NCBI GenBank assembly: GCA_944324555.1 | Contig: CALUWU010000151.1 | Coordinates: 1-58,112, forward strand | Source of the DNA: an uncultured Desulfovibrio sp. | GTDB lineage: Bacteria > Desulfobacterota > Desulfovibrionia > Desulfovibrionales > Desulfovibrionaceae | Length of the DNA: 58,112 nucleotides | Direction of reading: 5' to 3' | In this document: positions 5 to 56,979 of the stretch, piece by piece | How the letters are laid out: the number at the start of each line of letters is the position of its first letter | Numbering within the stretch: position 1 is the stretch's first letter | Made by a program: the position numbers and the translations under genes | Notes under the pieces: model-generated | The model's input: only the letters and a program-made list of their open reading frames with translations | Databases searched by the model: none | What the model was told of the DNA's origin: nothing

Positions 5-55
5 TTGAGGGGGAAACCCCCTTTTGCTTGCGGCAAAAAGGGGGTTTCCCCCTCA
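5..55. repeat. Module B-type long inverted repeat (hairpin)
   Basis: A GA-rich arm starting TTGAGGGGGAAACCCCC is followed by a short loop containing GCTTGCGGC and then its near-perfect reverse complement, ending CCCCCTCAA. It belongs to the dispersed family also seen at about 727, 14321, 19545, 37169 and 56760. An A-rich tail, apparently a degraded module end, runs to the stop codon of the next gene at 98. It could act as a transcription terminator for the minus-strand gene, but no proper U-run follows on either side. Confidence 0.75.
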
Positions 56-97
56 AAAAAGAAAATAACGCAATAAAAACAAAATAAAAAACGCAAC

Positions 98-616
98 CTA
101 GAAGCGCAACCAGTGCTGCGCCGCGCGTTCGATGGTAAATATGGTATGGCGCAGTTCCGGCCCAAGGAGGGCGACGAACACCAGCATCATGGCGCCGAGA
201 AAGACGTATTCGCCGAGGCTGCCCGTGGAGCAGAGCTTGAGAGAGAGGGTCGGCTTGCGGGAAAAGGGCATGATGGGCACGCCGTGCGGATTGAGCATGT
301 CCAGAATCACATGGGAAAGCCCGCCGAATCCCAGGCCCATGATGACGGCATGGGCGAAACCCGGCAGCTTTGCCAGCGCCGGCACAAGCCCGGCCGCCCC
401 GCCCACGAGCAGCAGGGCCAGCCACCAGCCAAACCAGTGCGTTGTGCCGCGATGAATGCGGTTGAAAGTTTTCTGACGATTGGGCGTCATGGCGGCGACG
501 CGCATGTCCAGCTTGTCGGGCAGGACGCCGCCCACGCATGAGGCTATGACCCCTTCAAGGGGCAGCTGCATCACCAGGGCCGCCCCGACGGCGGCGGTCT
601 GATGGGTAATCCACTT
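98..616 (-). CDS. YdjM/DUF457-like inner-membrane metal-dependent hydrolase
   Basis: 172-aa polytopic membrane protein. The N-terminus has the HQTAAVGAAL stretch and the GGVLPDKLD motif typical of the YdjM (LexA-regulated, putative membrane-bound metal-dependent hydrolase, DUF457) family. Further His and Asp residues (NRIHRGTTH, HVILDMLNPHG) fit a metal site facing the membrane. Three to four hydrophobic segments are visible. The ATG at 616 is chosen because AAGGAA lies 6 nt upstream; the longer frame to 682 has no ribosome-binding site and runs into repeat sequence. The substrate is unknown in this family. It is followed downstream by a hairpin repeat and preceded by a repeat-filled gap (617-836), so it is probably transcribed alone. 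Confidence 0.75.
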   Translation of the reverse strand, partial: KWITHQTAAVGAALVMQLPLEGVIASCVGGVLPDKLDMRVAAMTPNRQKTFNRIHRGTTHWFGWWLALLLVGGAAGLVPALAKLPGFAHAVIMGLGFGGLSHVILDMLNPHGVPIMPFSRKPTLSLKLCSTGSLGEYVFLGAMMLVFVALLGPELRHTIFTIERAAQHWLRF

Positions 617-726
617 CATCGGCATTTCCTTTTTTTCAAGAAAGCGGGGGCTGCCGCCCCCGCAACAGGGATTTCCCCTCAAAACAAGACGTTGTTAGAG
701 CGTTTCACCTTCTTTACCCGTCAGCA

Positions 727-840
727 CAATATGCGCGGGTTTTGGGGAAGATGGGGGAGTTTGAGGGGGAACTACCCCTTTTTTCCGCAAGCAAAAGGGG
801 TAGCTCCCCCTCAAGAAAACGTAATGAGTACCGAGCCTAG
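727..840 (+). repeat. Module B copy, with a module A remnant just upstream
   Basis: Starts with the shared head ATGCGCGGGTTTTGGGGAAG (from 731). A roughly 21-bp-stem hairpin TTGAGGGGGAACTACCCCTTTT / AAAAGGGGTAG-CTCCCCCTCAA follows, then the shared tail CGTAATGAGT-CGAGCCTAG. Bases 694-720 resemble the first part of module A (TAGAGCGTTTCACCTT). The last bases CTA (837-839) are also the complement of the nrdJ stop codon. The whole 617-836 gap is repeat; no gene is seen in it. Confidence 0.8.
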
Positions 841-3116
841 CCGCAACGGGAATAACCGCATTGCGGACAAATCAGACACCCTTCCTGAAAGATGAGTTCC
901 CCGCCGCATTCATGGCAGCGGTGTTCCTCCAGATCGGGCGCAAGCATGCTTACGGGCTGGTCCTTGAGGTAGCGCCGCTCCAGAACCCAGGCGATGGCGT
1001 CGGGAATGGAGAGCAGCAGACCCTTGCCCCTGAAAACGGGATGCTCGCCGCCGATGCCCTTGATCTGGGTAACGATGTCGCGCACGCTCACGCCGGAACG
1101 CAGGGCCAGCGACACCAGCCGCCCGATAGCCTCGGCCTTTGCGGTGATGGAACGGCCGGACTTGCCGATGGTGGCGAAGACCTCGAAGGGCTTGCCGTCC
1201 ACCTCGTTGACGGTGAGGTACATGGCGCCGAGACCGGTTTGCACCTTCTGGGTAAAGCCTTGCAGGATATCCGGGCGCTTGCGGACGGTGGACACGACCT
1301 CTCCGGCGGGCGCGGCCTCGCCGGAAGCCGCGGCGCCGTCCATTCTTTTCTGACCTTCGCCCGTGGCCAGCACCTGCAGATTCTTGCAGCCGTCGCGGTA
1401 GACCGTCACGCCCTTGCAGCCTTCTTCGTAGGCCATACGGTAAATGGCGTAGATGTCCTCGCGGGTTGCGCTGCCGGGCAGATTGACCGTCTTGGAAACG
1501 GCGTTGTCCGTATGGCGCTGGAATGCGGCCTGCATGCGCAGATGCCACACGGGGTCAATGTCCATGGCCGTCACAAAGACCCTTCTCAGGGAAGCGGGCA
1601 GGAACTCCATGTGCTGAATGGAGCCGGTGCGCGCGACGCTTTCCAGCAGTTCCGGCCCGGTCTCGCCCAGGCGGCGCAGGGCCGCCTCGAAATGGGGATT
1701 GAGTTCCACGAGTCGTTCCCCGTCCAGAATGTTACGCGTGAAACACAGGGCAAAGAGCGGCTCCACCCCGGACGAGCAGCCCGCGATGATGGAGAGGGTC
1801 CCCGTAGGCGCAATGGTGGTCACCGTGGCGTTGCGGAACGGCCCCAGCCCCTGACGCGCATAGGTGGAAGTCGGGTAGGCCGGGAAGGGGCCGCGCTCCT
1901 CGGCCAGACGCGCGGAAGCCGCGTGCCCTTCCGCATTGATGAAACTCATGATCCGTTCCGCCAGCGCCGTGCCTTCCGGGGAATCGTAGGGAACGCCCAG
2001 CAGGAAGAGCAGATCGGCAAAGCCCATGACGCCAAGGCCGATCTTGCGGTTGCGCCGCACGGTTTCCGCAATGCGATCCAGCGGGAAACGCGAGGCGTCG
2101 ATAACGTTGTCGAGAAAGCGCACGGCCAGATGGACGACGCGCCGCAGCTCTTCCCAGTCAATGCCGCCTTCAAAGGGATCGTCGTCCTGTTCATGCCCGG
2201 GCGCATAAAAGCAGGAAAGATTGATGGAACCCAGATTGCAGGCCTCGAACGGCAGCAGGGGCTGCTCGCCGCACGGGTTGGTGGATTCGATTTCGCCCTG
2301 ATCGGGCGTCGGATTGTCCCTGTTGATGCGATCCAGAAACACGATGCCGGGATCGCCCGACGACCAGGCCCTGTCCACCAGCAGATTGAAGATCTCCCGG
2401 GCGCGCCGCCGCCCCGCAATCTCGCCGCTGTGGGGCGAGCGCAGTTCGTATTCCTCGTCTCTTTCCACGGCCTGCATGAAGGCTTCCGTCAGGCCGACGG
2501 ACAGATTGAAGTTGTTGAACTCGCCGTCCTTTTCCTTGGCGCGGATGAAATCCTCGATATCGGGATGATCCACGCGCAGGATGCCCATGTTCGCCCCGCG
2601 CCGCGTGCCGCCCTGCTTGATCTGCTCAGTTGCGGTATTGAAGATGCGCAGGAAGGAAACCGGCCCGGAAGCCACGCCGCCGGTGGAACCCACGCGGCTG
2701 TCCTTGGGACGCAGGCGGGAAAAGGAAAAGCCCGTGCCGCCGCCGGACTTGTGGATCATGGCCGCAAATTTCACGGCGTCAAAGATTTCCTCGATGGAAT
2801 CGCCCACGGGCAGCACGAAGCAGGCCGACAACTGCCCGAGTTCCGTTCCCGCGTTCATCAGGGTCGGCGAATTGGGCAGGAACTTCCACGAGGTCATGAG
2901 ATCGTAAAACTCGCGCGCCAGCTGTTCCGGCGCATACGGCGAGGCGGAGTAGGCGCGCTCGCTTTCCGCCACGGCGGCCGCCACGCGCCAGAACAGCTCG
3001 CGGGGCGTCTCGACGGTCTTTCCATCCAGACTTTTATGCAGATAGCGCTTTTGCAGCACGATATCGGTATGGGGCTTGAGCTGCGGCTCGGGCAGCTCCA
3101 CGGGCATGGTCAGCAT
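837..3116 (-). CDS. nrdJ: Adenosylcobalamin-dependent (class II) ribonucleoside-diphosphate reductase
   Basis: 759-aa vitamin B12-dependent ribonucleotide reductase, which makes deoxyribonucleotides for DNA synthesis and works with or without oxygen. Visible motifs: the active-site region QLSACFVLP with Cys99 early in the barrel, the GGGTGFSFSRLRP segment, the STNPCGEQPLLPFEACNLGS motif (Asn280, Cys282, Glu284; catalytic N-C-E triad), and a C-terminal CHECGG...CPQCGYSRCG tail carrying the redox cysteines that re-reduce the active site, arranged like a zinc ribbon. The ATG at 3116 has AAGAGG 5 nt upstream. It lies about 110 nt downstream of the Rsm22-like gene on the same strand and may be co-transcribed. 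Its TAG stop coincides with the end of a module B repeat. Being oxygen-indifferent, class II suits an anaerobe exposed to air. Confidence 0.97.
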   Translation of the reverse strand: MLTMPVELPEPQLKPHTDIVLQKRYLHKSLDGKTVETPRELFWRVAAAVAESERAYSASPYAPEQLAREFYDLMTSWKFLPNSPTLMNAGTELGQLSACFVLPVGDSIEEIFDAVKFAAMIHKSGGGTGFSFSRLRPKDSRVGSTGGVASGPVSFLRIFNTATEQIKQGGTRRGANMGILRVDHPDIEDFIRAKEKDGEFNNFNLSVGLTEAFMQAVERDEEYELRSPHSGEIAGRRRAREIFNLLVDRAWSSGDPGIVFLDRINRDNPTPDQGEIESTNPCGEQPLLPFEACNLGSINLSCFYAPGHEQDDDPFEGGIDWEELRRVVHLAVRFLDNVIDASRFPLDRIAETVRRNRKIGLGVMGFADLLFLLGVPYDSPEGTALAERIMSFINAEGHAASARLAEERGPFPAYPTSTYARQGLGPFRNATVTTIAPTGTLSIIAGCSSGVEPLFALCFTRNILDGERLVELNPHFEAALRRLGETGPELLESVARTGSIQHMEFLPASLRRVFVTAMDIDPVWHLRMQAAFQRHTDNAVSKTVNLPGSATREDIYAIYRMAYEEGCKGVTVYRDGCKNLQVLATGEGQKRMDGAAASGEAAPAGEVVSTVRKRPDILQGFTQKVQTGLGAMYLTVNEVDGKPFEVFATIGKSGRSITAKAEAIGRLVSLALRSGVSVRDIVTQIKGIGGEHPVFRGKGLLLSIPDAIAWVLERRYLKDQPVSMLAPDLEEHRCHECGGELIFQEGCLICPQCGYSRCG

Positions 3117-3226
3117 GAAGACCTCTTTTGATGGACGCTGAAGGGGAAAGGCATCCTCCCGGACGCCTTCCCCGATGAAGCGTGATTGGGCGCGCCGACA
3201 GAGACGCGCTTTTTACCATATAATCC

Positions 3227-6560: not shown

Positions 6561-6572
6561 GCTGACGCCCTT

Positions 6573-6714
6573 GAGCGTTTCCTCTTTGAAAAAGGCGAAA
6601 CGCGAGGCGGCGTCGCAGCGCCGCCCGGCCCAAAGCGAGCGGAGAAACCGCGCTTTTTCCGCGAAGCGACAGGCCGTATGGTTTGAAACGCAACGCGTTT
6701 CAAACTGAAAATGC
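6573..6714 (+). repeat. Module A repeat copy (full length)
   Basis: Begins GAGCGTTTCCTC and ends CAAACTGAAAATGC. It contains a row of hairpins: a GCGGCGTCGCAGCGCCGC arm, a GCGGAGAAACC/TTTTTCCGC arm, and the perfect GTTTGAAACGC-AAC-GCGTTTCAAAC hairpin near its end. It has the same order and orientation as the copy at 52095. It fills the gap between the divergent ASKHA and fliM genes; no gene is seen in 6450-6795. Confidence 0.85.
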
Positions 6715-6795
6715 CCTTGTGACGAAGCCTGCGGCTTCGCCGCTCAGCAATTTCCCTTCTTCACAAGAGAAGGTTCAGCGTAAAAGGGAAGTTTG

Positions 6796-11895: not shown

Positions 11896-11969
11896 GATTC
11901 TTTCCTCGGGTTTCGTCGGCATGACCCGCATGTTCTTTCCTTGCGGTCTCCCGAACGCAAGGCCGCTCC

Positions 11970-12112
11970 AGAGCGTTTTCAGCTTGAAACGCATTGCGCT
12001 TCAAACCATACGGCCTGTAGTTTTACTGAAAAAACGCGGTGTTCCGCTCGCTTCGGGCCGGGCGGCGCGCCGCCGCCTCGCGTTTCGCCGTTTTCAAAGG
12101 AAAAATGCTCTA
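11970..12112 (-). repeat. Module A repeat copy (inverted orientation)
   Basis: Starts AGAGCGTTTTCAGCTTGAAACGC and ends CAAAGGAAAAATGCTCT on the plus strand, which is the reverse-complement orientation of the copies at 6573 and 52095. The internal GTTTGAAACGC hairpin is partly degraded (CTTGAAACGCATTGCGCTTCAA). It lies between the MATE gene and the FRG gene. Confidence 0.8.
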
Positions 12113-13152: not shown

Positions 13153-13190
13153 AACAAAAGAAACCGCGAACATTGCTGTTCGCGGTTTCT
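13153..13190 (-). terminator. Rho-independent terminator of ffs
   Basis: Perfect stem GAAACCGCGAACA / TGTTCGCGGTTTC (13160-13189) with a four-base loop, followed on the minus strand by TTTTGTTC. It sits just downstream of the SRP RNA and is convergent with the FRG gene. Confidence 0.85.
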
Positions 13191-13192
13191 GT

Positions 13193-13277
13193 GGGCCGGG
13201 CACCCGGCAACATCTGTTACCGCTGCTTTCTTTCGAACCTGACGGGGTTGGCAGTGCAGCCGCCGCCCGGCTTGGCA
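13193..13277 (-). ncRNA. ffs: Bacterial small SRP RNA (4.5S RNA)
   Basis: On the minus strand the sequence has the conserved SRP core: a GTCAGG asymmetric-loop strand, an apical TTCGAAAG-type tetraloop and an AAGCAGC-GGTAACAGATG strand. A closing helix is formed by GCCGGGC (13271-13265) and GCCCGGC (13201-13195). Length is about 85 nt. The RNA binds Ffh and targets nascent membrane proteins to FtsY/SecYEG. A strong terminator follows at once. The ends are estimated from the closing helix. Confidence 0.88.
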
Positions 13278-14156: not shown

Positions 14157-14262
14157 GGCAGCGGCGCGCCGCCGCCTCGCGTTTCACCTTTTTCAAAGGT
14201 GAAACGCTCTAGTGTTAACAGACCCCAGGGTCAGGACTCATATCAAGAGCCGTTTTCTTGCG
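14157..14262 (-). repeat. Partial module A joined to a module B end fragment
   Basis: 14157-14211 matches the last third of an inverted module A (GCCGCCTCGCGTTTCACC...GGTGAAACGCTCTAG). After a short AGTGTTAACAGACCC spacer, CAGGGTCAGGACTCAT (about 14224-14239) matches the outer end of a module B read in reverse. Bases 14263-14320 between this and the next B copy are AT-rich with no gene. Confidence 0.65.
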
Positions 14263-14320
14263 GGATAACAGATAAAAATAAAATATTCATATATTACAAC
14301 AACGTCCATCTTTACCCTCG

Positions 14321-14409
14321 GCGCGTTATGCGCGGGTTTTGGGGAAGATGGGAAAGTTTGAGGGGTTTCTTCCCCCTCAAAACAAAACGTAATGAGTCCT
14401 GAGCCTAAT
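14321..14409 (+). repeat. Module B copy (shortened hairpin)
   Basis: Carries the shared head TTATGCGCGGGTTTTGGGGA, a collapsed inner hairpin (TTTGAGGGG / CCCCCTCAAA) and the full shared tail ACGTAATGAGTCCTGAGCCTA. Its last bases are the complement of the stop codon of the gene that ends at 14405. Confidence 0.75.
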
Positions 14410-14743
14410 GCCCGGAATAATCCAGAACATTGTTGAGCGGCGCGACGCGGGAGCGGAGTTCGCCGTCGTGGAAGGAATGCCGCGTCAGCCGCCAGCCTTC
14501 AAGATCAATGACGTCCATCTTGCCTTGCAGCGTTCCGGCCGCCGCCCGCAGCGCGGCGACGACCTCCTCCTCGGGAAAGTAGCTGCCTTCAAAGGAAATA
14601 CGCAGCATGTCGCCGACGCGATCCAGCAGGGGCTCGTCGTCGCTGTCGGGCAGGGCGTCCGCCAGGGCCGCGCGCAGGGCCGTCTCCAGAGAGGCGTCGG
14701 CGGGATACACATGGCCGTAAACTTTCACAAGGGGGTCGCGCAT
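14405..14743 (-). CDS. 112-aa conserved-looking protein of unknown function
   Basis: Acidic, soluble 112-aa protein (MRDPLVKVYGHVYPADASLE...), no signal peptide and no recognised domain. The ATG overlaps the stop of the upstream TPR-like gene as TGATG, so translation is coupled and the two proteins are probably needed together. The longer frame to 15016 lies inside the upstream gene and is rejected. The TAG stop coincides with the tail of a module B repeat. Reality of the gene rests on the coupling and on a balanced amino-acid composition. Confidence 0.6.
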   Translation of the reverse strand: MRDPLVKVYGHVYPADASLETALRAALADALPDSDDEPLLDRVGDMLRISFEGSYFPEEEVVAALRAAAGTLQGKMDVIDLEGWRLTRHSFHDGELRSRVAPLNNVLDYSGH

Positions 14744-16017
14744 CAAGGCCTCGGAGAAAAGACAAAGGGATCGGGAAGAACCCGCACGCGCACGGGCACG
14801 ACGCGCGAAGCGGCCCGGGCCGTCTCCGGCGTGACCGGAGGCCAGAGCGGCACGTCGCGGCGCGCTTCCACGCCTTCCGGCACGGGCAGGCGCGGCGGCG
14901 GCGCTTCGGGGAAGGTTTCGGGCGCGCCGTCGGGCGGCAGGCAGCGCCCGCGTCCGCGCAGGGCGGCCAGCCCTTCGCAGTCGCCCAGCGCGCAGGCCGC
15001 CGTCAGGTCCTCGCACATGCCGGCTTCATTGCCGCGCAGCATCCGCAGGGCGCCCCGCGCCCGCAGGATGTCCCGGCGGCGCCCGTCGTGCGCCAGAGAG
15101 CCGACCGGAGCCGGCGCGGCGCGCAGGGCGGCGTCAAGATCTTCCTCCGCCAGCGCGGGCTGCTGCAGACGCCAGTGGGCCAGAGCCCGCACATAGCGCG
15201 CCCGCGCAAGATCCGGCGCAAGCCGCAGGGCCGCCGAGGCCGCCTCCACGCACTGCTGGGGCAGACCGGCGCGCAGACGGGCTTCGGCCAGCATGAGGCG
15301 GGCAAGGGCGCTTTCCGGCGCGGCGGCGACCAGTTCTTCAAGCCGGGGCATGTCCTGCGCTCCGGCCAGCCAGCCGTCGGAGGCGTCCAGCAGCAGACGC
15401 CGCACGTCGCCAAGCAGCGCTTCCAGAGCGGACGCCGCAGCGCGCAGCGATTCCGTATCGGCGGCGGCGTCGACGCGCCGCGCCGCCTCTTCCGCCTCCT
15501 GCAAAAGCCGCCGCCAGGCAAGGGCCCGGTCGGTATCGGCCTGCAGGCGCGCCGCGCGCGCCCCGGCGTCGGGAAGCGCGCGCAGGGTAAGCGTCACGCC
15601 GTCGGGACGAAGGCGGCACATGGACGGCGCCCCGTCCAGCTCCAGCCCGCCGGCGGCTTCCGCGGGTTCGCACACGCGGTTTGGCTCCAGAAAGAAGTCG
15701 CTTGCCGCCGCAATCGGGGCAAGACCAAAATTTTCGGGGAAGGAACCGGGCAGGCGGGGCAGCGCCAGCTCCAGCGCGTGCAGCCAGCCCCGGGCGACGG
15801 CCCGCCGGAACAGCGCCTCCCGGCAGACGGCTCCCGACGCTTCCGGCAGGACGATCCGCAGGCTCACAGGCTCGAACGGCGCCGCCGCGACCGTCGAAAC
15901 GGTCAGACACAAGACAAGAAGCGCAAGAAAGGCGCGCCGGAAACGCCGGCGCCCGCCGCGTCCGGCGCGCGTCGTGAAGAGGCGCGGGGGGATGCGGCGG
16001 GCGTCGGAAGCGTTCAT
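14743..16017 (-). CDS. Secreted TPR-like protein of unknown function
   Basis: 424 aa. A basic N-terminus is followed by a hydrophobic segment (about residues 30-45) ending VAAAP, a likely signal peptide. Then come a region with scattered cysteines and alanine-rich helices, including two tandem TPR-like units near residues 240-310 (ARLMLAEARLRAGLPQQC..., LARARYVRALAHWRLQQPAL). The last 60 residues are Pro-rich. It sits 42 nt after the lipoprotein gene and overlaps the 112-aa gene, so the three look like an envelope operon. TPR-like proteins usually scaffold complexes; no enzyme motif is seen. Confidence 0.7.
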   Translation of the reverse strand: MNASDARRIPPRLFTTRAGRGGRRRFRRAFLALLVLCLTVSTVAAAPFEPVSLRIVLPEASGAVCREALFRRAVARGWLHALELALPRLPGSFPENFGLAPIAAASDFFLEPNRVCEPAEAAGGLELDGAPSMCRLRPDGVTLTLRALPDAGARAARLQADTDRALAWRRLLQEAEEAARRVDAAADTESLRAAASALEALLGDVRRLLLDASDGWLAGAQDMPRLEELVAAAPESALARLMLAEARLRAGLPQQCVEAASAALRLAPDLARARYVRALAHWRLQQPALAEEDLDAALRAAPAPVGSLAHDGRRRDILRARGALRMLRGNEAGMCEDLTAACALGDCEGLAALRGRGRCLPPDGAPETFPEAPPPRLPVPEGVEARRDVPLWPPVTPETARAASRVVPVRVRVLPDPFVFSPRP

Positions 16018-19486: not shown

Positions 19487-19670
19487 CGCCGCCCGGCCCA
19501 AAGCGAGTCCGCGAAACGACAGGCCGTATAAACTGAAAATGCTCCAGGCTCAGGACTCATTACGGTTTTCTTGAGGGGGAAGAAACCCCTTTTGCTCGCG
19601 GCAAAAAGGGGTTTCTTCCCCCTCAAGCTCCCCCATCTTCCCCAAAACCCGCACATAATGTACTGACAAG
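19487..19670. repeat. Composite repeat: module A end joined to an inverted module B
   Basis: 19487-19544 matches the second half of module A with internal losses (CCCGGCCCAAAGCGAG, CGAAACGACAGGCCGTAT, AAACTGAAAATGCTC). It runs straight into a full reverse module B: CCAGGCTCAGGACTCATTACG, a long hairpin TTGAGGGGGAAGAAACCCC.../...GGGGTTTCTTCCCCCTCAA, and CCATCTTCCCCAAAACCCGC. This shows that A and B can form one unit. No gene is seen in 19483-19818. Confidence 0.8.
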
Positions 19671-35169: not shown

Positions 35170-35661
35170 ATGACGCCTCTGAGCATTGTGTTCGACGAAA
35201 ACCGCTGCATCGGCTGCAAGGCCTGCGAAGTTCATTGCAGCCAGTGGAACGGTCTGCCCATGTCCCTGTGCCGCCTTCTGGGAGGATCGCCGCGGCAGGA
35301 GCCGGATGGCATGCGGCTTGCGGCAAACCTCCTGCGCTGCGCTCACTGTCTCAAGCCCCAGTGCCTGAAGGCCTGCGGCCGGGGCGCCATGCAGCGCGAC
35401 GAGGATGGCGTCGTACATATCGGCGCAGCCCGCTGCGACGGTTGCGGCGACTGCCTCCGGGCCTGCCCCTATCAAGCCCTGCGCCGACATCCGGTCACGG
35501 GCAAGATGCACAAGTGCGATCTCTGCGCCGGGCGCCGCCGCGCCGGCGAAGAACCCGCCTGCGTGGCGGGCTGTCTGACCCGCGCCCTGCGCCTGAGTAA
35601 TACCGAGGACGACTATCGCCGCACGATCAAAAGCATTGCCCTCTGCCGCAGACAGCTTTAG
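35170..35661 (+). CDS. 4x[4Fe-4S] ferredoxin-type electron-transfer subunit (PhsB/PsrB-like)
   Basis: 163-aa protein with four cysteine groups: Cys13/16/19/23 (RCIGCKACEVHC), LLRCAHCLKPQCLKACG, ARCDGCGDCLRACPY and HKCDLC...CVAGC, the DmsB/PsrB/PhsB arrangement. It would pass electrons to the molybdopterin subunit encoded just upstream. RBS AAGGAAG precedes the ATG. Stop TAG (35659-35661) lies exactly at the start of a partial module A repeat. No signal peptide. Confidence 0.92.
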   Translation: MTPLSIVFDENRCIGCKACEVHCSQWNGLPMSLCRLLGGSPRQEPDGMRLAANLLRCAHCLKPQCLKACGRGAMQRDEDGVVHIGAARCDGCGDCLRACPYQALRRHPVTGKMHKCDLCAGRRRAGEEPACVAGCLTRALRLSNTEDDYRRTIKSIALCRRQL

Positions 35662-35712
35662 ATCACTTTCAGTTTGAAACGCGCTGCGTTTCAAACCATA
35701 ACGCCTGATACA
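35660..35712 (-). repeat. Partial module A repeat (end hairpin only)
   Basis: AGATCACTTTCAGTTTGAAACGC-GCT-GCGTTTCAAACCATAACGCCTGATA matches the inverted end of module A, including the perfect GTTTGAAACGC/GCGTTTCAAAC hairpin, which here directly follows the Fe-S gene stop and may serve as its terminator. Confidence 0.7.
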
Positions 35713-35785: not shown

Positions 35786-35955
35786 CTCTTTTCGTTTGTA
35801 AGCGCCGAGTAGGGGGACAGGATAAATCCGTATTCTGGGGGGAAGCCCCTCAGCGCCGCTGTCGATGCTCGTAGCTTCCTTCGTCGCAACGGGCACGGCC
35901 TGCGGCCACCCTCCGAGAGGCCCCAGCCTGATGAAAGAGCTTGTAACGTTGCGTT
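35745..35955 (-). ncRNA. Putative structured small RNA downstream of ribF
   Basis: Between the ribF stop and the strong terminator lie about 165 nt with no open frame of merit but many local hairpins on the minus strand: CCTC-TCG-GAGG, GGGTGGCC...GGCCGTGCCC, CAGC-GGC-GCTG, CTGAGGGGCTTCCCCCCAG, GGATTTATCC. Bases 35858-35928 share a block with the loop of the module B repeat at 56837-56927 (20 identical bases GGCCGCAGGCCGTGCCCGTT plus GGCTGGGGCC and GCATCGACAGC in the same order). It is either an independent small RNA or a structured ribF 3' end derived from the repeat. 6S RNA, RNase P and tmRNA were considered, but their hallmarks were not found. Confidence 0.4.
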
Positions 35956-35963
35956 GACAGGCC

Positions 35964-36902
35964 CTAGGCCGGAGAGTTCGCCAGAATTTCGCTTGCCTGC
36001 ACCGCATCCCGCTCTATCTGATCCGCCAGTTCCCTGGGGCCGGGGAAACGCCTTTCCCTGCGAATCTGCAACACGAAATGAACGCGCAGCCGCTTGCCGT
36101 ACAGATCCGTATCTTCCGGCGTCTCAAGCAGATGGCTTTCCACGCCAATCTCCCTTTCACCAAAGGTCGGATTGGAGCCGATATTGGTAACGGCGGGGAA
36201 GAGCTTGCCGTCAACCTCGACTCTGGAAGCATAGACGCCCGGCGCGGGCAGCAGCGTTTCCGGCATGGCGATATTGGCCGTGGGGAAACCAAGGCCGGAG
36301 CCGCGACCGTCGCCGTGCACGACCTCGCCCTCGCAGAAATGGCAGCGCCCGAGCATGCGCGCCGCCGAATCCACGCCGCCCTGCTCCACAAAATGGCGGA
36401 TGCGGCTGGAGCTGACCACGCTGCCGCCTTCCGTGACCGGCGCGAGCTGTTCCACCGTATAACCGTAGGCGCGCCCAAGCCCCTGAAGAACGCAGGGCTG
36501 GCCCGCGCGGCCCTTGCCCAGCGAAAAATCGTGCCCGACGATCAGGCGACGCATGGAAATGGGGGCCAGATACTGCTTGATGAAGTCCTCGGGAGAAAGG
36601 GCCGCCACAAGGCGATTGAAGGGGATTTCCCAGATAAAATCAGGCTGCAAGGCCCGAAGGGCGTCCAGGCGGGTCGCGCGCGTCATCAGCGGCACATGCT
36701 CCTTGCCCAGCACCAGGCGCGGATGAGGCCAGAACGAAACCACCACGCAGGGCATTCCCACCTTGCGGGCAAACTCCAGCGCATGACTGATGAGGGCCTG
36801 ATGCCCCTTGTGCACGCCGTCAAAATTGCCGATGGTGACGCAGCAGCCGCGTGCGGGGTCGATATTCGGCATCTGTTCCGTCGAGGAATCCGTCTGTTTC
36901 AT
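35964..36902 (-). CDS. ribF: Bifunctional riboflavin kinase / FAD synthetase
   Basis: 312 aa. Converts riboflavin to FMN and then FAD. N-terminal nucleotidyltransferase half: VTIGNFDGVHKGHQALI (HxGH-type motif), VVVSFWPHPRLVLG, MRRLIVGHDFSLGKGRAG, VVSSSRIRHF. C-terminal kinase half: GRCHFCEGEVVHGDGRGSGLGFPTANI, PAVTNIGSNPTF and ESHLLE. ATG at 36902 starts the natural family N-terminus; the ribosome-binding match (GGTAGAG) is distant. A putative structured RNA and strong terminator follow. Confidence 0.96.
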   Translation of the reverse strand: MKQTDSSTEQMPNIDPARGCCVTIGNFDGVHKGHQALISHALEFARKVGMPCVVVSFWPHPRLVLGKEHVPLMTRATRLDALRALQPDFIWEIPFNRLVAALSPEDFIKQYLAPISMRRLIVGHDFSLGKGRAGQPCVLQGLGRAYGYTVEQLAPVTEGGSVVSSSRIRHFVEQGGVDSAARMLGRCHFCEGEVVHGDGRGSGLGFPTANIAMPETLLPAPGVYASRVEVDGKLFPAVTNIGSNPTFGEREIGVESHLLETPEDTDLYGKRLRVHFVLQIRRERRFPGPRELADQIERDAVQASEILANSPA

Positions 36903-37021
36903 AATTATGACTCTACCTGCTGAAAAATGCCCGTTGTTTCCCATGAAACGCACTGGCGAACACGGCGGGTCAGACCCGCGCCATTCCACGTTCGAGCCGA
37001 CGCCCGACCGGAAAAATTCGT

Positions 37022-37073
37022 TTAGGGCGCTTTGCCTTTTTCAAGGGCAAAACGCGAGGCGGCGGGCCGCCCC
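37022..37073 (+). repeat. Partial module A repeat
   Basis: TTTAGGGCGCTTTGCCTTTTTCAAGGGCAAAACGC-GAGGCGG matches the beginning of module A. It is followed by an AT-rich palindrome (TTTTTCTATTT / AAATAGAAAAA, about 37077-37106). No gene is seen in 36903-37270. Confidence 0.6.
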
Positions 37074-37168
37074 TGATTTTTCTATTTTTCAAATAAATAG
37101 AAAAATACAAGCTACATAACCTTTGAAAGGCGCTTGCCGCATGGCCTGCGTCCCCTTTGAAAAAGCGC

Positions 37169-37262
37169 GTTGGGGGAAGGATGGGGGGTCCGGGGGGAAG
37201 GAAACACCCCTTGCGCGCTAGCCAAGGGGGTTTCCTTCCCCCCGGAAGAACGATTTCGTGTT
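37169..37262. repeat. Variant module B inverted repeat
   Basis: Head TTGGGGGAAGGATGGGGGG resembles the module B head. It is followed by a hairpin CCGGGGGGAAGGAAACACCCCTTG / CCAAGGGGGTTTCCTTCCCCCCGG with a CGCGCTAG loop. It lies directly after the stop of the 161-aa gene at 37271 (minus strand). Confidence 0.65.
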
Positions 37263-37270
37263 AACTCGCC

Positions 37271-37756
37271 TCAGATAAGACGATCAAAAATCAGGCGATA
37301 GATGGAGCGAATGTGCAGCGCCAGCTTGAGACTGACGCCCATGCGCTTTTCCTCATCGTAGCCGGATTCAACGACCAGCGGTTCGGCCAGACAACGGAAG
37401 TCCTGGGAGGAGGTTTCGCGCAACTCCGCCCAGTATTCTCCGGCCCGACGCACGACATCCTGCGCGGCCCTGTCCCGGGATCGCTTCATGTACTCGCGAC
37501 AAAAGGCGGAGAACATGTCGTCGGCCCGATCCGGAAAGGAAGACCCCAGCGCCAGACGCCACAGGGCCATATAGAGCGCGCGAAATTCCGCGGCCATCCT
37601 GCGACGGCGCGAGAACTGAAAGCGCCCGAGCCCCAGAATGGCCATCTCCTCAAAAAAATCCATATCGTTCAGGAGCGCGCGGAAATTCTCCCGAGCCTGG
37701 CGCTCGTACGTCTCCTCGTCGTTCGGTACGACAGCCGCGCCGCAAACCTCTTGCAT
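37271..37756 (-). CDS. 161-aa protein of unknown function
   Basis: Soluble, mostly helical, charged protein (MQEVCGAAVVPNDEETYERQARENF...), with FRALLNDMDFFEEMAILGLGRFQFSRRRRMAAEFRALYMALW in the first half. No recognised domain, signal peptide or membrane segment. Start supported by GGAG about 9 nt upstream. It lies about 130 nt after the helicase gene on the same strand. Balanced codon use argues that it is real. Confidence 0.65.
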   Translation of the reverse strand: MQEVCGAAVVPNDEETYERQARENFRALLNDMDFFEEMAILGLGRFQFSRRRRMAAEFRALYMALWRLALGSSFPDRADDMFSAFCREYMKRSRDRAAQDVVRRAGEYWAELRETSSQDFRCLAEPLVVESGYDEEKRMGVSLKLALHIRSIYRLIFDRLI

Positions 37757-49364: not shown

Positions 49365-49419
49365 CCTTTTCGCCGCCGAAAGCCCCGCGCGGCTGCCTCC
49401 GTCCGGCCGGGCCTGGGCC

Positions 49420-49441
49420 TTTTCAGTCTGAAACGCTCTAT
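49420..49441. repeat. Module A remnant with internal deletion
   Basis: CTTTTCAGTCTGAAACGC joins one end of an inverted module A directly to the other end GAAACGCTCTA, so only about 22 bp remain. It looks like recombination between the two GAAACGC copies inside the element. Confidence 0.45.
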
Positions 49442-50724: not shown

Positions 50725-50760
50725 CCAGAACCGCCCGACGGCGGGAAAGAAAGGGCGCGC

Positions 50761-51966: not shown

Positions 51967-52094
51967 TGGGGTCTCCATGAAAAAAAGGTATGCCCCGCCG
52001 ATGCGGGGGCATCGGCAGGGCTCCGTATCTGCGGGCTGTCGGAAAAACAGCGACACCGCTGAGGACTTCAGCCAGAGAACGCGGTCCGCCCCTG

Positions 52095-52239
52095 GAGCGT
52101 CTTGCCTTTGAAAAAGGCGAAACGCAAGGCGGCGCCGCAGCGCCGCCCGGCCAAAAGTGAGCGGAAAAAACGCGTTTTTTCCGCGAAACGACAGGCCCTA
52201 TGGTTTGAAACGCAACGCGTTTCAAACTGAAAAAGCTCT
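52095..52239 (+). repeat. Module A repeat copy inside the rub-roo operon (best-preserved copy)
   Basis: Begins GAGCGTCTTGCCTTTG and ends AAACTGAAAAAGCTCT. Hairpins: GCCTTT-GAAA-AAGGC, GGCGGCGC-CGCA-GCGCCGCC, the perfect GCGGAAAAAACGCGTTTTTTCCGC palindrome, and GTTTGAAACGC-AAC-GCGTTTCAAAC. Its last bases overlap the rubredoxin stop codon. Rho-independent termination is not evident, so it may act as an mRNA processing or attenuation point between rub and roo. Confidence 0.88.
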
Positions 52240-52375
52240 AGGAAGCGGAGAACTGATCCTTGCCTACGCCGCAGACGGGGCAGGTCCAGTCGTCAGGAAG
52301 CTGATCGAAGGGAACATTGTCATGCTCGGCGGGATCATATTCGTAACCGCACACGCCGCATACGTACTTTTCCAT
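52238..52375 (-). CDS. rub: Rubredoxin (short 45-residue type)
   Basis: 45 aa, starting [20 protein letters not shown] and ending KDQFSAS. The single iron is held by Cys6, Cys9, Cys32 and Cys35 in two CxxCG loops. It lacks the seven-residue loop of ordinary 52-residue rubredoxins, as does the D. desulfuricans protein, which it strongly resembles. It delivers electrons to Roo. RBS AAGGAG lies 6 nt upstream of the ATG. It lies 100 nt downstream of dfx. The TAG stop falls within the end of a module A repeat. Confidence 0.96.
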
Positions 52376-52856: not shown

Positions 52857-53024
52857 GGGTATTCTCCTTCCAATATCGGCGAACTCGCCGGTATTCCGCA
52901 TGCAGCGGTTTATCAGTCGACAGATGAACAGACGGCGGGAAACGCGCCTGCTCCTCGATTCATCAGCGCGGCCGGACGGGAGCGCCGCCCGAACGCGGGC
53001 CGTCAAAAATTTTCGGCTTCCCCA

Positions 53025-53052
53025 TAATTAGGAACATAGTGCAATAAGTCAA
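53025..53052 (-). promoter_or_regulatory. Promoter of the dfx-rub-roo operon
   Basis: TTGACT (53052-53047), 16-bp spacer, TAATTA (53030-53025) on the minus strand, in an AT-rich island. TTCCTAATTA and nearby TTATTGCACTATG have weak dyad character that might be a peroxide/iron regulator site; not demonstrable here. Confidence 0.5.
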
Positions 53053-53072
53053 GAGGACTTTTTCCGTTCCGG

Positions 53073-54254
53073 TCATTTCTCCACCACCTGCCTGCGGCGG
53101 ATGCCGAGCACATTGGGCAGGGAGGGCGCGGGCGGATCGCCCAGCAGAATGGCGGCGGCGCTGCGACCGTAGCGCTCGAAGAGCAGGCCCCCCGACCGCA
53201 GGAGCAGGCCCGCCTGAGCGCCCCCCTCGACATACATGACCGTGCGGACGTCCAGCGGCAGATTCAGCAGACGCTGCGCCAGAACGTACGGTTCCACGGG
53301 CTGGCGGCAGTGCAGAAAGAGAATATGGCCGTCGCCGGTCTGCGCCACGGCGGCCACGGCGACGGGTCTGTTGTCCGCCGCCCAGACAATGCGACGGTCC
53401 TCGCTAATGATGCGAAAATTCTGGGCGACCAGCCGGTAATGGCCTTCCAGCGCCTCGATATCGACGCGCGTGCCGTCTTCCACCGCCGCCGTCGGAACTC
53501 CCGCCGCCCGGGCAAGACCGTCGGGCCCGGCCAGAAAATAGGCGCCGAGCCGCTCTCCATGCCGGGCGTTGTTCACATGCGGCCCCTCGCGCAGATACCC
53601 GGTGCTGGTCCGACCGTCCGGCAGATACATGCTGGCGTTGATGGCCGCCACGAGCCCCATGCGATCGGCCCAGCGGCCCAGCGGCAGGGGGACGCCGCCG
53701 TCGGAAGCGGCGCACAGCACGAATTCAAACCGGGCCGGATCAATCCGCACGACGCGCAGGGTCGCCCGCGGCGGTCTCTCTTCGCCGGTCGGCCGCTCGT
53801 ACCGGGCGGCAATGAAGGAAAATTCGCCGTACTCCAGTCCCGGCTCCAGCTGTTTCCAGCCCCGTTCGTCGGGAATGGCCGCCGTTCCGCCCGAAGAGGC
53901 AAAGGCAACGTCCGGCGCCTGCGGCAGTTGCGGCGCGACCGGAAGCGGGGCCTGCGGCTGCGCGACATGCGGCGTCTGTACCGTGGGAATGGCGATGGTC
54001 GGTTCCTTGACCTTGACGGAGCCGCCATAAATTTTTGTCACGCGGCGCGAACTCCGCACGTCTCCCAGGGCGTTGTCTATCCCCAGGGAAGAAGCGCTTT
54101 CGCCCGCGTCGGCAGGCGCCTCCCGCCCGGGAGGGCCGGAAGGCGGGGGGGAGGGTTCCGTCCCGGGGGGGACGTCGCCCGCGACGGCGGCGCAGGCCAT
54201 GCCCGCGACAAGACTCAAACTCGCAAAGACTCTACGCAGCAAGGGTTCTCCCAT
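53073..54254 (-). CDS. Secreted phosphodiester glycosidase (NAGPA/DUF2233-like)
   Basis: 393 aa. Signal peptide (LLRRVFASLSLVAGMACAAVAGD), a Pro/Ala/Gln-rich linker to about residue 130, then a NAGPA domain: LVAAINASMYLPDGRTSTGYL (conserved Asn, Gly), GPHVNNARHGERLGAYFLAG, EDRRIVWAADNRPVAVAAVA and MYVEGGAQAGLLLRSGG. Family members hydrolyse sugar-phosphodiester bonds; in bacteria they act on the envelope or exopolysaccharide. An in-frame TTG at 54242 (GGGAG 5 nt upstream) is a serious alternative start, as GGAGG stands only 2 nt before the ATG. A single-gene unit upstream of dfx. Confidence 0.8.
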   Translation of the reverse strand: MGEPLLRRVFASLSLVAGMACAAVAGDVPPGTEPSPPPSGPPGREAPADAGESASSLGIDNALGDVRSSRRVTKIYGGSVKVKEPTIAIPTVQTPHVAQPQAPLPVAPQLPQAPDVAFASSGGTAAIPDERGWKQLEPGLEYGEFSFIAARYERPTGEERPPRATLRVVRIDPARFEFVLCAASDGGVPLPLGRWADRMGLVAAINASMYLPDGRTSTGYLREGPHVNNARHGERLGAYFLAGPDGLARAAGVPTAAVEDGTRVDIEALEGHYRLVAQNFRIISEDRRIVWAADNRPVAVAAVAQTGDGHILFLHCRQPVEPYVLAQRLLNLPLDVRTVMYVEGGAQAGLLLRSGGLLFERYGRSAAAILLGDPPAPSLPNVLGIRRRQVVEK

Positions 54255-54434
54255 ATCCTCCGATACGCGTTCCGATCGGTTTGCTCCCGCGCCGGGGGAG
54301 GGGCTTCCCCCGAAAGGGGAAATTCCCTCCTCCGGCCGCGTTCCTCGTTCCGCGACATGCGCCGGAGAACGCGGGCGGAAAGGCGTCCTCCCGCCCCGGC
54401 GAAAATGCGGCGGACAGGCCGAAAGGCGACGAAG

Positions 54435-55625
54435 CTAGCGCGCTTCCGCGGCCAGCTTTTCCAGAACCGCGCCCACGCGCTCCAGCGCGTCCCGCAGGAC
54501 GTCGTCCGCAACGGCATAGGAAAGGCGGATGCAGCGGTCGTCGCCGAAGGCGGCCCCGGGCACAAGCGCCACGTGCGCCTCATCCAGCAGACGGGTGCAG
54601 AGTTCCGTGGAATTTCCGACGGAACCGCCGAAACAGCGATGCACGTCGACAAACAGATAAAAGGCGCCGTCCGGGCGGGGGCATACGGCTCCCGGCCAGC
54701 CGGCGATGACTTCCATGGCCATGTCGCGGCGGCGGCGGAAGGCCTCCCGCATTTCGTCCACGCAGTCCGTCGGGCCGTTCAGGGCCGCCAGCGCGGCTTT
54801 CTGGGCGATAGAGCAGATATTGGACGTGCTGTGCCCCTGCATGGAAGAGATCTTCTTGATCAGATCGGGATGCGCGGCAAGGAAGCCCACGCGCCAGCCC
54901 GTCATGGCGAAGCTCTTGGACAGGCCGTTCAGCACGGCGACCTGCTCGGGATAGCGCGCGAACCAGGAAATGGCGCTGCTCATGACCGCCGGGGCAAAGA
55001 CGAGCTGATCGTAAATTTCATCGGACAGTACAAAGACGCCGCGTTTCATGGCCCAGTCCATGATGGCGTCAAACTCTTCCCGGGTGTAGACGGCGCCGGT
55101 GGGGTTGCTGGGCGAGTTGAGAATAAGCAGGCGCGTCGCCGGTCCCGCGTGGGCTTCCAGCATGGCGGGGGTCACCTTGAACCCCTGTTCAGCTCCGGCG
55201 GGCACGCTTACGGGCTTGCCGCCGGCAAGCATGACCATGTCGGGATAGCTCAACCAGTACGGCGCGGGAATCAGGACTTCGTCGCCCGGATTGACGGTAG
55301 TCTGAATGAAATTATACAGGCAATGCTTGCCTCCCGCGCCGATGACAATGGATTCCGCCGGAACGGGCACGCCGTAGGCGCGCTCGAAGTAGGCGCCCGC
55401 CGCAGCGCGCAGTTCGGGAATTCCCGGCACGGCCGTATAACGGCAGAAGTTCGCGTCAATGGCCGCCTTGGCGGCTTCGCAAATATGCGCGGGGGTGGGA
55501 AAGTCCGGCTCGCCCACGGCAAGACTGGTAACGGCAACTCCCTGCGACTTCAACTCCAGGGCCCGACTGTTGACGCTCAGCGTCAACGACGGCTTGATGC
55601 TTCGCAGGCGTTCGGAAATCTGCAT
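54435..55625 (-). CDS. Aspartate/aromatic-type pyridoxal-phosphate aminotransferase (class I)
   Basis: 396 aa. Fold-type I aminotransferase. LAVGEPDFPTPAHICEAAKAAI, VIGAGGKHCLYNFIQTTVNPGDEVLIPAPYW, ILNSPSNPTGAVYTREEF (Asn), VLSDEIYDQLVF (Asp), and NGLSKSFAMTGWRVGFLAA with the PLP Lys and Arg, plus C-terminal CIRLSYAVADD with the substrate Arg. Most like the AspB/PatA Ib subgroup that transaminates aspartate and aromatic acids. ATG at 55625 has AAGGAG upstream. Divergent from sfsA, with a promoter just upstream. Confidence 0.95.
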   Translation of the reverse strand: MQISERLRSIKPSLTLSVNSRALELKSQGVAVTSLAVGEPDFPTPAHICEAAKAAIDANFCRYTAVPGIPELRAAAGAYFERAYGVPVPAESIVIGAGGKHCLYNFIQTTVNPGDEVLIPAPYWLSYPDMVMLAGGKPVSVPAGAEQGFKVTPAMLEAHAGPATRLLILNSPSNPTGAVYTREEFDAIMDWAMKRGVFVLSDEIYDQLVFAPAVMSSAISWFARYPEQVAVLNGLSKSFAMTGWRVGFLAAHPDLIKKISSMQGHSTSNICSIAQKAALAALNGPTDCVDEMREAFRRRRDMAMEVIAGWPGAVCPRPDGAFYLFVDVHRCFGGSVGNSTELCTRLLDEAHVALVPGAAFGDDRCIRLSYAVADDVLRDALERVGAVLEKLAAEAR

Positions 55626-55686
55626 GACAAGGGCTCCTTGCTGACTGACGGCGCGCCGCGGCGCGCCTTGCATTGAATCTGCAAAA

Positions 55687-55715
55687 CATGTAGCAGGTTG
55701 CCCGTAGACTGTAAA
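55687..55715 (-). promoter_or_regulatory. Sigma70 promoter for the aminotransferase gene
   Basis: TTTACA (55715-55710), 17-bp spacer, TACATG (55692-55687) on the minus strand, about 60 nt before the ATG. Confidence 0.55.
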
Positions 55716-55737
55716 TGAGCCTCAACCCCGTTCCGCC

Positions 55738-56523
55738 ATGACGCGCACGCCCCCGCTTCTCCCCCTTCCCCCGTCCTGCATCGTCGGCCTATTCCGGCAG
55801 CGCCGCAAGCGCTTTACCGTTCTGATGGAAAAGGACGGGCAAACGATCAGCGTCCACAGCAACAATTCCGGCAGCATGCTGGGGCTGACGCGCCCCGGCG
55901 CGCCCCTGCTGGCCTCGCCCGCGAACAACCCCGCCCGCAAGCTGCCCTATACGCAGGAAGCCGTCTGGCTGGAAACGCGCGCCGTGCCGCCGGAACTACC
56001 GCCGGCCCCGGACGCGCCCCTCCCCGGGCTGCGCGGCTTCTGGGTCGGCGTCAATACGGCGGTCCCCAACCGTATGCTGGAAGCGGCCTTTCATGCGGGC
56101 CGTCTGGACTTTGCGCGCGGCTATACGGAATGCCGCCGGGAGGTCCGCCGGGGAGCGAGCCGCCTGGACGCCTGCCTGACCGGGCCGGATCTGCCGCCGC
56201 TCTGGGTGGAGTGCAAGAACGTCACGATGGTGGAAGACGACAGGGCGCTCTTTCCCGACGCCGCCAGCGAGCGGGGGCAGAAGCATCTGCGCGAACTCAT
56301 GGACATCGTCGCGGCCGGGGAGCGAGCCGCCATGTTTTATCTTGTACAGCGCCCGGACGGACGCTGCTTTGCCCCCGCAGACGTCATTGACCCCGCCTAT
56401 GCGGACCTGTTTTATGAGGCCGTGCGCGCGGGCGTTGAAATGTATCCCTATCGAGCCGTCGTCAGCACGAAAGGTATTGATCTGGGCGAGCCCTTGCCGC
56501 TTGCCACCTCGCAAGACCGCTAG
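55738..56523 (+). CDS. sfsA: SfsA, DNA/RNA nuclease-like protein
   Basis: 261 aa. N-terminal OB-like part with [17 protein letters not shown] and [23 protein letters not shown], then a restriction-endonuclease-like core [40 protein letters not shown] (the ExK-type motif and FPDA-S-RG-KHL signature). Earlier called a sugar-fermentation stimulation protein; later annotated as a nuclease. The start has no clear ribosome-binding site and is set by frame and family length. No other gene is close downstream; the next 467 nt are repeat. Confidence 0.92.
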
Positions 56524-56582
56524 CCGTTTTGCACGCACAACGCTGCCGCGCGCGCCAATCATGCGCCGCCGGAAGATAAAAA

Positions 56583-56598
56583 CGTTTCACGCGAAACA
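56583..56598. other. parS-like 16-bp palindrome (second site)
   Basis: CGTTTCACGCGAAACA differs from TGTTTCACGTGAAACA at two positions. It is flanked by A-rich sequence and lies just before a module A repeat. Confidence 0.25.
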
Positions 56599-56611
56599 AA
56601 AAAACACAATC

Positions 56612-56760
56612 CTAGAACGATTTCTGTTTGAAACGCTACGCGTTTCAAACCACAAGGCCTGTCGTTTCGCGGGGAAAAACCCGGTTCTCCGCTCACTTTG
56701 GACCGGGCGGCGCAGTCTCGCCGCCTCGCGTTTTACCCTTTTCAAGGGTGAAACGCTCTA
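56612..56760 (-). repeat. Module A repeat copy (inverted), joined to a module B copy
   Basis: Begins TAGAACGATTTCTGTTTGAAACGC and ends CAAGGGTGAAACGCTCTA; the inner palindromes are partly degraded. It runs directly into the module B copy from 56760. Confidence 0.82.
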
Positions 56761-56979
56761 TGCGCGGGTTTTGGGGAAGATGGGGGAGTTTGAGGGGGAA
56801 ACTACGGGAACGCCTTCCCTCGCTTCGCTTCGGAAAGGCTGGGGCCCTTTTTGCCGCGAGCAGCGACCCGACGGCGGCCGCAGGCCGTGCCCGTTAGGCG
56901 CCTTGGCGCCTTACGGGCATCGACAGCAGAGCAAAGGGGTTTCTTCCCCCTCAAAAAATGTAATGGGTCCTGATCCTGG
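56760..56979 (+). repeat. Module B copy with an extra loop segment
   Basis: Head TGCGCGGGTTTTGGGGAAGA and tail AATGTAATGGGTCCTGATCC are intact, but the loop between the GA-rich arms is enlarged by about 130 nt containing several hairpins (for example GTGCCCGTTAGGCGCC...GGCGCCTTACGGGCAT). Part of this loop (56837-56927) matches the structured region next to ribF at 35858-35928. It abuts a short module A start (GGAGCGTTTTGCC, 56977-56989) at the end of the MFS gene. No protein gene in 56524-56990. Confidence 0.8.

Follow-up and report, generated by a model that had tools for sequence, protein, structure and literature searches.

Repeat copies in the window

The sequence analysed here, called the window, is a stretch of 58,112 nucleotides from an uncultured Desulfovibrio sp. 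(assembly GCA_944324555.1, contig CALUWU010000151.1, positions 1 to 58,112 of the forward strand). It is contig 151 of a draft genome of 2.89 Mb in 192 contigs with a completeness of 88%. Beside its genes, the window contains copies of three families of short, hairpin-rich repeats, A, B and D (Table 1), which most probably are miniature inverted-repeat transposable elements (MITEs). B and D have a hairpin core in common, which might fold into an intrastrand triple helix. No paper describing these Desulfovibrio repeats was found in a literature search of open-licence papers.

The first-pass annotation of the window had described a dispersed repeat family composed of two modules. The dispersed repeats are real, but the MITE-like families number three. 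Full and partial copies of module A were recovered at all ten sites within a few bp. Module B is present at 712, 14226, 19545 and 56759 and, as hairpin only, at 1-60, whereas the copy at 37169 is a D element sharing nothing but the hairpin core with B. The extent given for B was too short, as a full copy starts with TAGGGTCAGGACTCATTA about 110 bp ahead of the former head. From the proposed array A-B-A at 56612-56989, A-B was retained, but the last A is a mini-hairpin of 36 bp and not module A. Copies beyond the window, for which the annotation had proposed to search, were detected genome-wide: 131 B-type ends with up to three mismatches were counted, versus four with a reversed-pattern control, and at least 41 long A matches. 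The latter number is a floor: scoring was limited to 40 of the 300 candidates, and the list lacks three of the four full-length window copies.

Table 1. Repeat elements and core parts in the window.
Position	Strand	Feature	Remarks
1-60	-	Core hairpin, truncated by window edge	R1 match 2-59 (-), 39 bits
696-711	-	A end scrap, right end, TAGAGCGTTTCACCTT	From sequence
712-839	+	B, left-truncated; core 733-816	Terminal TAG is stop codon of minus-strand ribonucleotide reductase gene 837-3116
6571-6718	-	A, full length; flanking 2-bp duplication AA	Empty site in G012 orthologue (L134)
11969-12112	+	A, full length	
14157-14211	+	A, right part	
14209-14227	-	Solitary D-type end between A and B, 3 mismatches	
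14226-14407	+	B, both inverted ends, shortened hairpin	Terminal TAG is stop codon of open reading frame 14405-15016 (-)
19487-19546	-	A fragment, left end	End dinucleotide common to B
19545-~19690	-	B, right end and core (19570-19654)	Left end not recognised
35659-35707	+	A fragment, left end	
35948-35966	-	D-type end, 4 mismatches	TAG is stop codon of open reading frame 35964-36989 (-)
37023-37075	-	A fragment, right end	
37083-37280	+	D element, eroded ends	Core 37163-37246, 91.8 bits
37165-37188		D core: anchor and third strand	
37189-37191		D core: turn	
37192-37204		D core: purine arm	Followed by inner hairpin
37231-37243		D core: pyrimidine arm	
49413-49440	+	A remnant, 28 bp, two ends only	Internal deletion
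52093-52240	-	A, full length	
56613-56760	+	A, full length	Joined to B via common TA
56759-56978	+	B, long class	About 107 nt extra inside hairpin
56977-57012		Mini-hairpin, 36 bp, A-like ends TGGAGCGTTTTGCC..AGAACGCTCCA	Strand not assigned; from sequence

Structure and target sites of the elements

A elements are about 148 bp long, start with TAGAGC(A/G)TTT, end with GCTCTA and possess a hairpin near either end. B starts with TAGGGTCAGGACTCATTATC and ends with CGTAATGAGTCCTGAGCCTA, which form inverted ends of 18 bp, and mostly comprises about 217 or 322 bp. Among 20 two-ended copies (112-327 bp; two from other assemblies), nine measured 208-228 bp and seven 290-327 bp; the remaining ones are a copy of 316 bp containing an A element (L023) and three shorter copies of 112, 182 and 190 bp. 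Several copies of the long class contain, at the same site inside the B hairpin, an extra segment of about 107 nt that has hairpins of its own (in the window, for instance, at 56800-56930). D comprises about 230 bp, with TAGGGCCTGTTAACAC at the start and its complement at the end (five complete copies, 227-231 and 299 bp). All three families show constant boundaries with terminal inverted repeats, for D in the five complete copies, and are smaller than a transposase gene.

Traces of insertion were detected at several loci. In L023, the A element is nested in B at a TA, which is now doubled. The full-length A at 6571 is absent at the orthologous site of the relative G012, and the AA is doubled in the window. 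Tandem A copies have two bases in common (G009, contig C21; G070, contig C85). A target-site duplication together with an empty site was found for A only, while B and D showed TA-type flanks, the TA being required by the search pattern. The base before the TA was a pyrimidine in 77% of the symmetrised sites of 30 A elements and in 93% of those of 13 B elements, without a computed background. A and B are firmly classified as MITEs, and D is likely one as well. The three families would thus be non-autonomous transposons moved in trans, which insert at TA, mostly within YTAR (Y, pyrimidine; R, purine), and duplicate it.

Of 79 genomes of the genus, 24 contained A and 14 contained B. A search with 25 bases of the B head, which possibly excluded records very near the own genome, gave exact matches in 12 stretches from three metagenome-assembled genomes of Desulfovibrio, among them Candidatus Desulfovibrio intestinigallinarum. 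Judging by the names of these genomes, the window probably stems from a Desulfovibrio of the gut. The mini-elements at 56977-57012 and 49413-49440 contain little beyond two A-like ends, and similar scraps flank several A copies.

Transposases with matching ends

The IS5-family domain PF13340 was searched in 13 genomes of the genus, ten of which showed a match, nine over the cut-off. At three of 30 fetched loci (G070, G066 and G012), an IS5-family element of 832 bp possesses the ends of B, perfect in two cases and with one mismatch in the third, and its first reading frame represents the PF13340 domain. An autonomous element with the same ends was found for B only. It is likely that B was cut down from this IS5-family (DUF4096) element with its identical ends, and a transposase of the same kind may have moved A and D. 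IS5-family genes between ends almost identical to those of B also occur on alphaproteobacterial plasmids. Short matches (E 1-4) to the outermost 18-27 bases at the end of B were obtained on 127 plasmid records, mostly of Klebsiella and Escherichia; an IS5-family transposase was located under the match at six of 30 listed, all six alphaproteobacterial.

The proposal of the first-pass annotation that a non-autonomous element was moved in trans is thus borne out by the constant ends of A, B and D, by 2-bp duplications, with an empty site for A, by nested and tandem copies sharing TA, and by the IS5-family element with B's ends in three relatives; the search it had proposed for a transposase with matching ends succeeded for B, but not for A or D. 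Its statement that no transposase is present holds for the own draft genome within the three domains searched: PF01609 (DDE transposases of IS4/IS5) and PF13358 (IS630) were unmatched in this 88% complete genome, and PF13340 gave one weak fragment. A derivation from IS630 is not indicated in the own genome, to which the PF13358 search was confined. The suggested functional element stood in part, as the hairpin core of B and D also occurs alone, often right after stop codons, and covaries.

The hairpin core and its position relative to genes

The core, consisting of head and hairpin, is common to B and D and is also found solitary. It contains a hairpin of about 24 bp and, ahead of it, a strand that is a mirror of the purine arm; on the purine-rich strand the order is anchor, third strand, short turn, purine arm, inner hairpin and pyrimidine arm. 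This strand is the template strand of the gene preceding the core. A covariance model built from 28 copies gave at least 150 matches in the own genome (all scored ones matched; 135 separate places above 81 bits) and 111 and 130 in the complete genomes G018 and G062, where both strands of the palindrome may be counted. In samples covering 13-14% of G018 and G062, 46 matches corresponded to 29 places after 17 second-strand matches had been dropped, which amounts to about 90 and 120 places per genome. Family-wide, 49 of 149 genomes were matched at E ≤1e-8, with 30 candidates scored per genome.

At 15 of the 29 places a gene stop is located within 45 nt on the hairpin side, but only at two on the head side, compared with 3.4% of random windows (within 60 nt); the genes were called by a simple composition rule, so that misses and false genes are to be expected. 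Two convergent genes each possess a core of their own at five of 30 loci. Several cores of G018 have, as judged by eye, a counterpart with identical flanks in G061 or G062, and therefore these cores did not move. A U-tract directly after the hairpin is absent; in the sense of the gene the hairpin is followed by a C-rich tail (by eye), which does not correspond to an intrinsic terminator. In other genera, some triplex-type hairpins lie 20-30 nt before a called gene start (L312, L315, L323, L324, L329, L332 and L340), unlike those of Desulfovibrio.

Covariation of the third strand with the hairpin

The covariation score of the hairpin was 0.417, versus 0.229 after shuffling (reached in 0 of 500 shuffles). 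In 77 distinct copies, the mirror match of the head to the purine arm amounted to 791, versus 709 when arms were exchanged between copies (0/1000) and 664 when letters were shuffled. If the purine-motif code of triple helices (G at G; A or T at A) is applied to 50 distinct arm/head pairs, the score is 0.87 versus 0.74 with a maximum of 0.78 (0/5000), the heads having been trimmed by their own best fit, which slightly favours true pairs. When the last arm base is disregarded, 507 of the 548 arm G positions in 64 distinct copies are matched by G in the head, and 200 of the 216 arm A positions by A or T. T was found in the head opposite A 59 times and opposite G four times. In the upper half of the hairpin, where the purines are on the other arm, the head has T at 61 of 62 A positions and C at seven of eight G positions (29 distinct combinations; head run defined as T or C). 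According to the rules for triplexes, such a change of code is expected when the orientation of the third strand relative to the purines changes from antiparallel to parallel.

Between the 5' end of the head and the loop of the hairpin, complementarity was observed (374 versus a mean of 312 and a maximum of 337; 0/2000, 77 copies). The pairing types are AGCGCG/CGCGCT, AACGCG/CGCGTT, AGCGCA/TGCGCT, GCGG/CCGC and, once, AGAGCT/AGCTCT, and only six of the 77 copies showed a match of at most 3 nt. This would be the expected terminus of a docked third strand. A pairing of the head with the pyrimidine arm as an alternative hairpin was not significant (102 of 2000 shuffles), and the correlation of stem length with tail length was 0.15.

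The code score is 0.93 for the 64 cores, 0.71 for letter-shuffled heads and 0.55 for 44 unrelated hairpins with a purine arm; at least 0.8 was reached by 95% of the cores, but by only two of the 44 other hairpins, one of which is a missed element. This mirror-plus-hairpin element among the control hairpins is located at L270:19089 (+). In other genera (37 of 40 loci, 11 genomes, seven genera), 24 distinct pairs with automatically assigned arms scored 0.80 versus 0.73 (0/5000), with a direct control of 0.66, although the automatic rule misplaced several arms. With arms taken from folding (17 of 40 readable; 15 distinct pairs), G is at G in 125 of 135 and A or T at A in 39 of 42 cases. The arms AGAGGAGAGGGGAAA, AAGGGGAAGGGGAGA and GGGGGAAGAGGAAA each possess a mirror of their own. 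As judged by shuffling, the triplex-type covariation appears strong. The core combines a mirror repeat with an inverted repeat and seems to obey the triplex code, like the motifs designated as PIT/TM.

Insertion at stop codons

The consensus ends of A, B and D all begin with TA followed by G. From the own genome and relatives, 212 distinct ends were collected (a few from the insertion sequence itself); 190 had a flank of at least 330 bp, and 98 a coding-like frame toward the end. At 52 of the 98, the TAG of the element is the stop codon of the frame. At the other ends, the stop is located 1-60 nt (17) or 61-150 nt (21) before, or the frame enters the element (8). A quarter of all other TA sites, treated by the same rule, served as control; 2522 of these had a frame, which stopped exactly there in 898 cases, 1-60 nt before in 278 and 61-150 nt before in 371, and ran on in 975. 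The share of exact stops is consequently 53% at element ends versus 36% in the control, and that of frames running on 8% versus 39% (Fisher p = 1.2e-9).

In 800 kb of G062 and G018, 425 YTAR sites are located inside genes, 598 between genes and 150 on stop codons, and 52 lie at most 60 nt after a stop. Since 52:17 at the element ends equals 150:52 at the sites (odds ratio 1.06, p = 1), there is no sign of a preference for stop codons beyond the availability of YTAR, and the excess is explained by the YTAR target together with the loss of insertions inside genes. A TAA or TAG stop hit at its TA would be restored as TAG. Because each end reads TA followed by G, stop codons would represent harmless landing sites where copies build up.

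Individual loci illustrate this. In L102, A is located in the stop codon of a frame of 117 codons; its counterpart in G018, which has 119 codons and ends with similar residues, lacks an insertion. Two species have different elements at one and the same stop codon, namely A at L106 of G012 and D at L094 of another assembly; the frames concerned are similar, with 72 codons in the available part. In the window, B supplies the stop codon of the large chain of ribonucleotide reductase (759 aa, three Pfam domains). A polarity of B at stop codons was considered (24 of 37 right ends versus three of 15 left ends) and held unproven, because the counts for complete copies are weaker (8 versus 3) and A is similar (13 versus 5); it is partly due to how the B copies were found.

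Possible origin and function of the core

It is fairly probable, on the evidence of the sequences, that A, B and D are MITEs moved in trans, and that B and D captured an older core, which also stands alone, keeps its position in relatives and forms a putative intrastrand triplex at gene boundaries. The third strand would lie in the groove of the hairpin, and the covariation suggests that the anchor pairs with the hairpin loop. Beside the purine arm the triples would be G.G-C, A.A-T and T.A-T, and T.A-T and C.G-C where the purines change strand. At gene boundaries, this structure might act as a DNA roadblock or supercoil sink limiting read-through between neighbours; an RNA hairpin might in addition mark or protect the 3' end of the mRNA. 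A more far-reaching version is possible, but has to be called tentative: the core would be a family of natural DNA intrastrand triplexes under selection in several genera of the Desulfovibrio family, whose third strand switches its partner half-way and docks in the loop. Folded on the template strand, it would block or absorb transcription and thereby mark the boundaries of genes, and the MITEs would paste it together with a TAG at gene ends.

Several results weigh against this explanation. Neither A nor D has a partner, as no autonomous element with A's ends was found and no insertion sequence with D's ends was noticed among the 30 fetched IS5 loci. One candidate for A, an IS5-type gene adjoining an end of this repeat in G012 (L177/L237), was rejected, since the copies of the gene in G062 have other ends (TAGAAGTCATTTCATAAT) and A is just a neighbour. 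For B, the own draft genome contains only the PF13340 fragment (22.5 bits, under the cut-off of 34.3). None of the shuffle tests on the core was corrected for kinship among the copies, and two of five measures of hairpin covariation do not exceed the shuffles: double changes at 10 of 18 pairs were reached by 21 of 500 shuffles, and further pair types were not above shuffles (493 of 500). A direct-repeat control of the head also exceeded its shuffles (703 versus 667, 0/1000), although by less than the mirror, and the run lengths of head and arm are weakly correlated (Spearman 0.43 and 0.37). In other genera, T occurred at G 22 times with automatic arms, and with folded arms opposite A eight and opposite G only three times, so that T at A is less marked than in Desulfovibrio. 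Among 40 elements of these genera, nine are located within 45 nt of a gene 3' end and nine of a 5' end on the hairpin side (the latter counted by hand). Because of these equal counts, a single role at gene ends does not fit all elements; the theme common to the genera is so the gene boundary rather than a terminator proper.

The relatedness of the copies, tested without a tree, and the direct-repeat control also speak for the simpler explanation that only plain MITEs are present, which A and B clearly are. The core would then be a terminator-like hairpin with a G-rich flank, whose mirror arose from low-complexity purine tracts and shared descent without ever forming a triplex. We regard this as rather unlikely, since letter-shuffled heads and other purine-arm hairpins fall far below the cores in code score, a simple duplication or inversion yields no mirror repeat, the mirror is kept by different sequences in other genera, and T within the genus is opposite A far more often than opposite G. 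A somewhat better, though still doubtful, candidate is a fold of the RNA, in which a pseudoknot forms between the loop and the terminal part of the C-rich tail, and the tail lies in the groove as a pyrimidine triplex, stopping exonucleases or helping Rho at the 3' end. Such a fold would agree with the location of the Desulfovibrio cores closely behind stop codons and with fixed polarity, with the covariation of hairpin and loop, and with the convergent genes that have a core each. However, T at an arm A (59 of 216) corresponds in the RNA tail to an A facing an A-U pair, which is outside the pyrimidine code, and a run of C+.G-C triples needs acid pH. Because T at A is accounted for and acid is not needed, the purine motif on DNA is favoured over the pyrimidine triplex on mRNA. 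Some elements of other genera precede start codons, and the missing U-tract likewise does not support the RNA fold.

The G-rich strand might alternatively form a G-quadruplex and be kept single-stranded by the hairpin. Direct inspection of B shows four G-tracts separated by short loops, but the position-wise mirror match, T at A, C at G in the upper half and the pairing with the loop are all unpredicted, and this proposal is improbable. It is still far less credible that the repeats are repetitive extragenic palindromic (REP) sequences or bacterial interspersed mosaic elements (BIMEs) moved by REP-associated tyrosine transposases (RAYTs), a class touched on by the term BIME-like in the first-pass annotation. 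The enterobacterial elements of this class are numerous, conserved hairpins close to the 3' ends of genes, and the present repeats are likewise many-copy intergenic hairpins near gene ends. They differ from them in sequence, by the third strand and by the missing link to a RAYT. The Y1 transposase domain PF01797, searched in 12 genomes, was unmatched in G017, G071, G067 and G073, which carry repeats, and gave only a fragment in the own genome. In the complete relatives G062 and G018, 35 and 10 matches were counted, and 0-2 in the other genomes searched; these counts are uncorrelated with the repeats, and B possesses DDE-type ends and an IS5 partner.

Comparison with known systems

Bacterial intrastrand triplex motifs have been described as PIT, BoxC and TMECO (Holder et al. 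2015, PMC4666352). By that description, PIT/TMECO and the core are alike in being intergenic and multi-copy, with the potential for a purine-motif (class II) triplex on one strand, a 3-nt turn and a patchy distribution among close relatives. The block order differs, being third strand, purine arm, inner hairpin and pyrimidine arm in the core and pyrimidine, purine, purine in TMECO; by eye, the core fails the TMECO pattern CCCTCNCCC N3-6 GGGNGAGGG N3 GGGNGAGGG in both block order and letters, and its inner hairpin is longer than the loops of 1-6 nt in the search of PMC4666352. Loop docking, strand switch and position-specific covariation distinguish the core from TMECO as portrayed there. TMECO yields a stable triplex in vitro, but according to PMC4666352 it displayed neither terminator activity nor a bias in strand, distance or position nor an association with mobile elements, whereas the core is oriented toward gene 3' ends in Desulfovibrio and is carried by MITEs. 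The word Desulfovibrio is absent from the main text of that paper. We read the core as akin to the PIT/TM motifs of E. coli, that is, as a putative selected intrastrand triplex element captured by MITEs. TMECO is the bacterial motif studied best; its copies are nearly identical (PMC4666352, section 18), and their conservation could be mere spread; here, divergent copies and genera seem to keep the triplex code via paired changes, and because of these a role of the triplex can be tested with mutants and counter-mutants.

What DNA triple helices do in cells is a long-standing question. The MITE layer may add that a TA target and an end starting with TAG allow transposons to fill gene ends harmlessly and to carry a structured element along.

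The IS5-family elements and the present MITEs are alike in the PF13340 transposase, the short inverted ends and TA-containing targets; for IS5 of E. coli, the target sites CTAA and CTAG are named in PMC11677980. Unlike other IS5-family MITEs, the present ones contain a structured element that is also found alone, and A and D are without a known partner. The RUP element of pneumococcus (107 bp, 108 copies) is likewise short and numerous, uses TA targets and is moved in trans. It is, however, tied to IS630-Spn1, and its description in PMC2229807 includes neither a hairpin cargo at gene ends nor a regeneration of stop codons.

Additional observations

For six loci of cores and MITEs, Rfam gave 29 weak matches, all to microRNA models and below the cut-offs. 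In the window, no Rfam match above the gathering score was obtained except the bacterial small signal recognition particle RNA (RF00169) at 13189-13274 (-). The contigs C89, C168, C192 and C18 of the own genome (G000) have a terminus inside an A copy or only a few bases away from one, and the repeats seem to break the assembly.

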